A DNA stretch of 64,000 nt from positions 1-64,000 of the forward strand of contig AJFK01000890.1 of assembly GCA_000467715.1 (NCBI GenBank), in the 5' to 3' direction. The notes beneath the pieces were generated by a model. It searched no databases, had not been told where the DNA came from, and was given only the letters and a program-made list of their open reading frames with translations. Made by a program: the position numbers and the translations under genes. Below are positions 42,202 to 42,838 of the stretch, one piece after another. This stretch comes from Hysterium pulicare CBS 123377. Its lineage: Eukaryota; Ascomycota; Dothideomycetes; Hysteriales; Hysteriaceae. The first letter of the stretch is position 1. Each line of letters begins with the position of its first letter.

Positions 42202-42673
42202 CTAAATCTGCCCATTCAGGAGTTAAAGCAGTTGATCTTTTCATCGTGATCTCGCACTCGATGTCCTGGCCTACTTGAGGCAGGTCATGAAATCGGAATA
42301 CAAAACCAGATCTCCCTTAGAAAAAAGTGTGCGCCTTAATTAGCATCGCGGAAAGTGCTTTGGTGAAGCACAAAGAAGTAAGAAAGGTATGGCAAGCAAC
42401 GAGTAACGTAAACCCCGCCTTGGCCAGTGCTACGGAAGGTATATTCTAGTAGTGCCGAGGAATGATCACTCATGGTTGGGTAAATTGTGGGTCACACACC
42501 GCCTTAAAGCGAGCCAAAATCGAACATTAAACGGTGCGGGAGCGGTTAATAAGTCCACCACTTACTGGCAGGTACCGAATTTGAACTTTTATTGAGTCAG
42601 GTTCCTGGAAATTTTGACAACTAAAGTATATAGAACAACAAAATTTTCATATCCAACAATTCAACAGGATTCA
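42202..42673. other. Spacer upstream of the tRNA gene
   Basis: AT-rich flank with no recognisable gene. It includes whatever promoter copy A had. Confidence 0.4.
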
Positions 42674-42816
42674 GGTCTCGTGGTCTAGTGGGTAAGCAAC
42701 ATTTCCATTCCTGCTCTGGTATGCTCATTCTAACAACCCCACAGTATGATTCTCGCTTAGGGCACACCCTTCAGCACAAATGCGAGAGGCCCCGGATTCG
42801 AATTCCGGCGAGACCC
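42674..42816 (+). tRNA. tRNA-Pro (anticodon AGG) with two insertions
   Basis: Acceptor stem GGTCTCG (42674-42680) pairs fully with CGAGACC (42809-42815), with C as discriminator. Box A TGGTCTAGTGG is intact. The D arm resumes as TATGAT at 42745 after a 53-base insertion (42692-42744). The anticodon stem CTCGC/GCGAG encloses TTAGGG, with anticodon AGG at 42759-42761. An 18-nt intron follows position 37 (42763-42780), and its CCCT can pair with the anticodon loop, as in ordinary tRNA introns. The T arm CCGGA-TTCGAAT-TCCGG is perfect and includes box B. With both insertions removed the RNA is a standard 72-nt tRNA-Pro. The D-loop insertion begins GTAAGC, has CTAAC and ends CACAG. Confidence 0.88.
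42692..42744 (+). other. 53-nt intron-like insertion in the tRNA D loop
   Basis: The insertion lies exactly between AGTGG and TATGAT of a canonical D loop. It starts GTAAGC, has TTCTAAC 10 bases before the end and stops at CCACAG, matching the donor, branch and acceptor signals of the protein-gene introns in this window, and its length is typical of them. The junctions could also pair (GTGGG with CCCAC), so cutting by the tRNA splicing endonuclease is an alternative. Confidence 0.75.
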
Positions 42817-42829
42817 CTACTTCTGTCCC

Positions 42830-42838
42830 TTTTTTTTT
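42830..42838 (+). terminator. RNA polymerase III terminator
   Basis: A run of nine T beginning 14 bases after the tRNA 3' end. Confidence 0.85.

Follow-up and report, generated by a model that had tools for sequence, protein, structure and literature searches.

A tRNA-Pro(AGG) gene of Hysterium pulicare CBS 123377 is interrupted not only where tRNA introns are expected but also within its D-loop, which raises the question of what the second insert is and how a tRNA could be made from such a gene. The locus lies in the window, the 64,000-nt stretch of contig AJFK01000890.1 that was analysed. An earlier note on this DNA had described an 18-nt interruption at tRNA position 37/38 and a 53-nt one in the D-loop that starts GTAAGC, contains TTCTAAC and ends CACAG, and the sequence bears out both the description and the coordinates (Table 1). 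The gene reads GGTCTCG TG GTCTAGTGG / GTAAGC...CTAAC...CACAG / TATGATTCTCGCTTAGGG (18 nt) TGCGAGAGGCC CCGGA TTCGAAT TCCGG CGAGACC C. The further claim that a standard tRNA remains after removal of both interruptions held in most respects. With the 53-nt insert taken out, ARAGORN called tRNA-Pro(agg) with an 18-nt intron, and with the insert left in it called no tRNA; after splicing the acceptor, anticodon and T stems are fully paired, the D-stem has three pairs and the T-loop matches the consensus. The exception is T-arm pair 53-61 (window 42796-42804), which is A-U, changed on both sides, in place of a nearly universal G-C that all the other 17 insert-bearing genes described below have. The A box and a T9 run are present, but the B box departs at 53 and 61 and, given A53-U61, is imperfect and probably weakened. 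Rfam at gathering score returned no tRNA match for the window or the Pro-AGG locus, and a D-arm-like site at window 63564 holds no tRNA in our reading. CCCT in the 18-nt intron is complementary to AGGG in the anticodon loop, and the fold shows a four-pair helix there.

Table 1. Features of the tRNA-Pro(AGG) locus in the window and sites of GT-AG inserts in the other tRNA genes
Feature	Window position	Strand	tRNA position	Remark
tRNA-Pro(AGG) gene	42674..42816	+		143-nt precursor; ARAGORN tRNA-Pro (agg) once 42692-42744 removed
Exon 1	42674..42691	+		Acceptor 5' strand, D-stem 5' strand, D-loop to G19
A box, within exon 1	42681-42691	+		TGGTCTAGTGG
Predicted spliceosome-type intron (Pro-AGG insert)	42692..42744	+	19/20	53 nt
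5' splice site of D-loop intron	42692-42697	+		GTAAGC
Branch site of D-loop intron	42730-42734	+		CTAAC; branch A 42733, 11 nt from end; TTCTAAC at 42728-42734
3' splice site of D-loop intron	42740-42744	+		CACAG
Exon 2	42745..42762	+		Remaining D-arm, anticodon stem 5' strand, anticodon AGG, G37
Ordinary tRNA intron	42763..42780	+	37/38	18 nt; ARAGORN i(37,18)
Exon 3	42781..42816	+		Position 38 to discriminator C73; T-arm 42792-42808, A53-U61 replacing G53-C61
TATATA	42627..42632	+		47 nt upstream of Pro-AGG; role presumptive
T9 run	42830..42838	+		Likely Pol III terminator of Pro-AGG
Pro-CGG inserts			D-loop 18/19; T-loop 57/58
Pro-TGG insert			26/27
Gly-CCC insert			53/54
Gly-TCC insert			Variable loop
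Lys-TTT insert			53/54
Ala-AGC insert			58/59
Ala-CGC insert			25/26
Ile-AAT insert			D-loop
Thr-TGT inserts			26/27; T-stem
Val-CAC inserts			11/12; end of D-arm
Arg-ACG insert			Anticodon arm, just before loop
Trp-CCA insert			D-loop
Arg-TCG inserts			D-loop; 53/54
Leu-CAA1 inserts			D-loop; 53/54
Leu-CAA2 inserts			14/15; inside anticodon
Cys-GCA inserts			End of D-arm; variable loop
Leu-TAA inserts			D-loop; before anticodon stem

The 53-nt insert is very probably a U2-type spliceosomal intron lying within a tRNA gene transcribed by Pol III, a reading that draws on the anatomy of the locus, the recurrence of such inserts in 18 genes, the restoration of cloverleaves on their removal and one pair of genes with and without the intron. 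Recurrence was assessed in the whole assembly (37.2 Mb, 596 contigs) with the Rfam tRNA model and with A-box, B-box, D-arm and anticodon-arm patterns, and fetched stretches were read by hand. At least 26 GT-AG inserts outside 37/38 were found in at least 18 tRNA genes, at sites spanning the D-arm, anticodon arm, variable loop, T-stem and T-loop (Table 1; tRNA positions follow our own numbering). These insert and gene counts are lower bounds: an RF00005 search of the genome gave at least 27 matches with 63 of 1229 first-look candidates scored, a sample rather than a census; one pattern search gave loci for 30 of 84 places; and three others, two of them listing 100 of 141 and 100 of 101 matches, yielded places of which a minority were read. 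Such inserts occur in 18 of the 42 tRNA genes recognised, and the other 24 are clear tRNAs without one (L002-L015, two in L016, L018, L030, L033, L084, L086-L088 and L096), the isotypes Lys-CTT (L012) and Tyr (L015) being our reading against ARAGORN's label. Eleven loci that could not be read as clear tRNAs were left out of the 42 (L019, L020, L021, L022, L023, L026, L082, L092, L098, L105 and L133). Judged from sequence, many nuclear tRNA genes of this fungus, Pro-AGG included, carry short introns resembling those of messenger RNA, so that ordinary tRNA production would call on both the spliceosome and the customary enzyme of tRNA splicing.

The strongest single case is a pair of Ala-AGC genes. 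Once spliced, L027 (G000 C471) is identical over 72 of 72 nt to the intronless L006 (G000 C78), and the flanks of the two differ; the insert at 58/59, present in the first and absent from the second, would mark the gain or the loss of an intron inside a single genome. Ile-AAT and Gly-CCC likewise have copies without such an insert. Blastn among the 26 inserts found a single shared stretch of 12 nt and hence nothing to suggest that one element had recently been copied, and a shared mobile element was rejected as their source. Two genes are unusual in their arrangement. A Pro-CGG gene (L037, G000 C127 near 6974, minus strand) has three introns, namely a GT-AG one in the D-loop, one at 37/38 and a GT-AG one in the T-loop. 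In the Leu-CAA2 gene (L107, G000 C91 near 61303) a GT-AG insert, in our reading, splits the anticodon between 34 and 35; the same reading gives two mismatches in the anticodon stem, the boundaries are open in the pairing scan described below (842 ties), and the gene is possibly decaying.

The 26 inserts share the signals and the size expected of spliceosomal introns. All begin with GT and end with AG (26/26 each), 23 end in YAG and 25 have G at +5. Their median length is 51.5 nt, with 25 of them between 47 and 57 nt and one of 78. A CTRAY motif lies 4-25 nt from the end in 23 of the 26, compared with a mean of 3.2 and a maximum of 10 in 2000 shuffles, and is absent from three; the median distance from the branch A to the last base is 11 nt. 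Boundaries were first chosen on visual inspection, with attention to GT and AG, and later the ends of the Lys-TTT and Val-CAC genes were adjusted by one base and some introns shifted to other GT-AG registers: the start of the first Leu-CAA1 intron moved from GTACCA to GTCAGT, the second Leu-TAA intron from GTACCC..GGTAG to GTTCGT..TCAAG (favoured by six points in the pairing scan) and the second Cys-GCA intron from GTGTTA to GTTAGT, where the pairing score was equal and the splice-site motif decided the choice. The boundaries before revision gave a picture little different, with 23 YAG, 22 G at +5 and 22 CTRAY, against 3.1 in shuffles, for 25 introns.

Because the boundaries had come from reading by eye, a blind scan was performed in which each segment of similar length was removed in turn and cloverleaf pairing alone was scored, the results being sorted into 256 classes by end dinucleotides. 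GT-AG topped the scan in 16 of the 26 inserts, with the next-best class reaching five, and came within two points of the top in 24, with the next-best class reaching 10. For 11 inserts the claimed boundaries are top-scoring with at most six tied registers, of which exactly one is GT-AG. In 10 of the 26, Pro-AGG included, some boundary other than GT-AG outscores every GT-AG one, with a lead of five points in the case of a Cys and of a Leu-TAA insert. The GT-AG boundaries of Pro-AGG score 54 against a best of 56, with six of 1850 alternatives better, since a D-loop fixes boundaries loosely; a slide of one G gives two registers with an identical product, one of which is GT-AG. ARAGORN with the intron fixed at 37/38 recognised every one of the 18 genes once spliced and gave 17 of them the expected anticodon; it labelled the spliced Trp-CCA gene Leu(cag). 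From the same 18 genes left unspliced it called seven, one with the expected anticodon, and returned nothing for 11, so that tRNA finders may miss such genes. At its free-intron setting the expected anticodon was obtained for 13 of 17 spliced and three of 17 unspliced genes.

Open frames with short GT-AG introns, a CDC27/APC3-like protein and a DUF7820 match agree with the genome being that of a filamentous ascomycete. The tRNA inserts resemble the mRNA introns of the window. Twenty-two of the latter, identified by reading frame, have a median length of 60 nt, with nine between 47 and 57 nt, and 16 end in YAG and the remainder in other AG ends, as do three of the tRNA inserts. Since these 22 were preselected for GT....G, CTRAY and a length of 45-89 nt, a free comparison with the tRNA inserts is confined to the 3′ end and to length inside those limits. 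Taken together, these data indicate that the inserts are real and repeated, and the best reading of them is that nuclear tRNA genes carry spliceosomal introns; the genome-wide pattern supports the suggestion in the earlier note that the spliceosome may act on a Pol III transcript, and offers nothing in favour of the endonuclease route also suggested there.

A quite improbable alternative, held in reserve by the earlier note, is that the Pro(AGG) locus, or the entire set, is dead, consisting of unused copies whose insertions resemble introns by accident. Disuse would fit the A53-U61 pair and imperfect B box of Pro-AGG, the degenerate state of Leu-CAA2, and the existence of an intact Ala-AGC gene and of insert-free Ile-AAT and Gly-CCC copies, but it sits poorly with GT-AG ends in 26 of 26 inserts, and in Pro-AGG itself the T-stem change is compensated and the acceptor and anticodon stems are fully paired after splicing. 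It is also countered by the proline genes, since all three isoacceptors found (AGG, CGG and TGG) are interrupted by such inserts. Nor did anticodon-arm or D-arm patterns reveal a second Pro(AGG) gene among the genomic places that they matched, gene counts being lower bounds: the anticodon-arm word CTCGCTTAGGG occurs at 11 sites, of which that in the window is the only tRNA and the other 10 are without an A box or B box, and the nine places given by the D-arm search contained no further proline gene except Pro-TGG, itself interrupted. Should the assembly be nearly complete, proline codons could be decoded only once at least one such intron had been removed. Pro(AGG) alone may be dispensable, because in yeast tRNA-Pro(UGG) can read all four proline codons. 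Disuse is thus unlikely for the phenomenon as a whole, given its genome-wide pattern, and may hold for Pro-AGG taken singly.

Transcription of these genes by RNA polymerase II, which would place the spliceosome in its usual setting, is very improbable. Split A boxes in Val-CAC and Leu-CAA2, a split B box in Ala-AGC and a T6 run inside the D-arm intron of Leu-CAA1 (L106, G000 C581 near 118821), a possible or even likely premature stop for Pol III, speak for it, and Pro-AGG has no good B box; yet a run of at least five T begins within 20 nt downstream of all 18 insert-bearing genes, and 12 of the 18 have a TATA-like site between -75 and -20. The B box, moreover, is contiguous in 16 of the 18 precursors. 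In four precursors it is completed by the final G of a 53/54 intron, and in Pro-CGG (L037), whose own B box is split, the only B box, GTTCGAGCC, is inside the T-loop intron. This is what maintenance of a Pol III promoter would lead one to expect. Avoidance of internal runs of at least five T, which are present in one of the 18 genes against 2.3 expected, was not significant and was dropped as a proof of Pol III transcription.

Ordinary eukaryotic tRNA introns are also present at 37/38 in many of the same genes, as at 42763-42780 in Pro-AGG. In the 11 insert-bearing genes that have them they are 8-35 nt long, none is GT-AG (0/11) and one, in Ala-CGC, contains CTRAY, and in these respects they are unlike the 26 inserts. 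Extremely improbable is the endonuclease route that the earlier note had set beside the spliceosome, in which the inserts would be ectopic tRNA introns cut at bulge-helix-bulge (BHB) junctions by the tRNA endonuclease, as in Cyanidioschyzon merolae and archaea: C. merolae nuclear tRNA genes do resemble those described here in being broken at the D-loop, anticodon loop and T-loop by ectopic introns, several per gene (PMC3978253, in excerpt), and GTGGG of exon 1 does pair with CCCAC of the insert in the folded Pro-AGG precursor, but the C. merolae junctions form BHB motifs, whereas here, in the 3-4-3 geometry tested, the 4-bp central helix is complete at the chance level, in two of 26 inserts (Gly-CCC and Ala-CGC) against 0.9 expected, Pro-AGG has two of the four central pairs and so no BHB, splice signals are present, and endonuclease cleavage predicts neither GT, AG, CTRAY nor a uniform length of about 52 nt. 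The GTGGG/CCCAC pairing could instead draw the ends of the Pro-AGG insert together.

For the spliceosomal introns we infer the transcribing polymerase, the removing machinery, the order of the two splicing steps and an origin by reverse splicing. Pol III would transcribe Pro-AGG through both introns up to the T9 run, and the spliceosome would read GTAAGC, CTAAC and CACAG and excise 42692-42744, after which the D-arm would fold and the tRNA endonuclease and ligase would excise the 18-nt intron from the folded precursor. This order is suggested because the tRNA endonuclease requires a folded tRNA body and the interrupted arm cannot form unless the GT-AG intron leaves first. The introns may have come in a wave that reached numerous sites in the tRNA genes of this fungus, the simplest route being reverse splicing of excised mRNA introns into those genes. 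We consider it likely that spliceosomal introns invaded the nuclear tRNA set in this ascomycete lineage (18 of 42 recognised genes, in all arms but the acceptor stem), that several tRNAs, proline included, can be supplied only if the spliceosome works on Pol III transcripts ahead of the endonuclease, and that 3′ splice sites were adapted to the promoter or selected by it, given that an AG-ending 53/54 intron rebuilds the B box and one intron holds its own.

Spliceosomal introns in ascomycete rRNA genes were reportedly described by Bhattacharya in 2000, and mRNA-type introns in U6 snRNA are said to have been found by Tani and Ohshima in 1989 and discussed by Canzler in 2016. U6 is a product of Pol III. 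Five U6 copies above the Rfam cut-off in the present genome (L116-L120) are end-to-end matches with no intron; the 3′ end of one (L119) seems divergent, and this copy may be a pseudogene. The rDNA of lichen and other ascomycetes bears spliceosomal introns (PMC8527467; PMC11889510, both in excerpt), and yeast removes one lichen spliceosomal intron from Pol I rRNA (PMC8527467, same excerpt). The rRNA introns of ascomycetes and lichen fungi are likewise short and spliceosomal and lie in a non-coding RNA gene outside Pol II; there, however, the host is rRNA transcribed by Pol I, whereas the host here is a tRNA, which a second splicing system would also have to process. Fungal U3 snoRNA also carries mRNA-type introns, and according to a 2017 survey frequent interruption by an intron was known, among small structured RNAs, only for U3 and U6 (PMC5832005, in excerpt). 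U6 and U3 thus offer spliceosomal introns in small structured RNAs, but the hosts here are tRNAs, with at least 26 introns in at least 18 genes of a single genome. Introns of rDNA are mentioned in the paper on the Cladonia grayi genome, whose single main-text match for tRNA is the table on organelles (PMC6652019); tRNAscan-SE 2.0 is described in the excerpt as seeking noncanonical introns in archaeal tRNAs (PMC8450103). Excerpts of a 2025 paper on splice-site repeats (PMC11782384) and of a review of organellar introns (PMC8393795) contain no such case. Among the matches listed in the open full-text literature, a scope exclusive of subscription papers and preprints, none reports spliceosomal introns in tRNA genes. 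If the reading is correct, the taught division, by which the spliceosome serves Pol II transcripts and the endonuclease and ligase serve tRNA, would be broken, and there would be natural spliceosome activity on a large number of transcripts made by Pol III. With the exact product of each host RNA known from structure, these introns would also provide an unusually clean test bed for the origins of new spliceosomal introns.

Two further groups of sequences were seen in the course of the searches. L097, L099, L100, L101 and L113 are short units that combine a B-box-like GTTCGANTC with a T-run and, upstream, a TATA-like run; Rfam at an E-value of 0.1 gave no match for them, the start of L100 resembles the U6 5′ stem-loop, and the five are possibly novel Pol III RNAs. 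The second group (L020, L022, L023 and L026; G000 C129, C63 and C387) consists of related tRNA-like sequences (GTCGGTGTAGTYTAGTGG...) whose middles vary, and is perhaps a tRNA-derived repeat.
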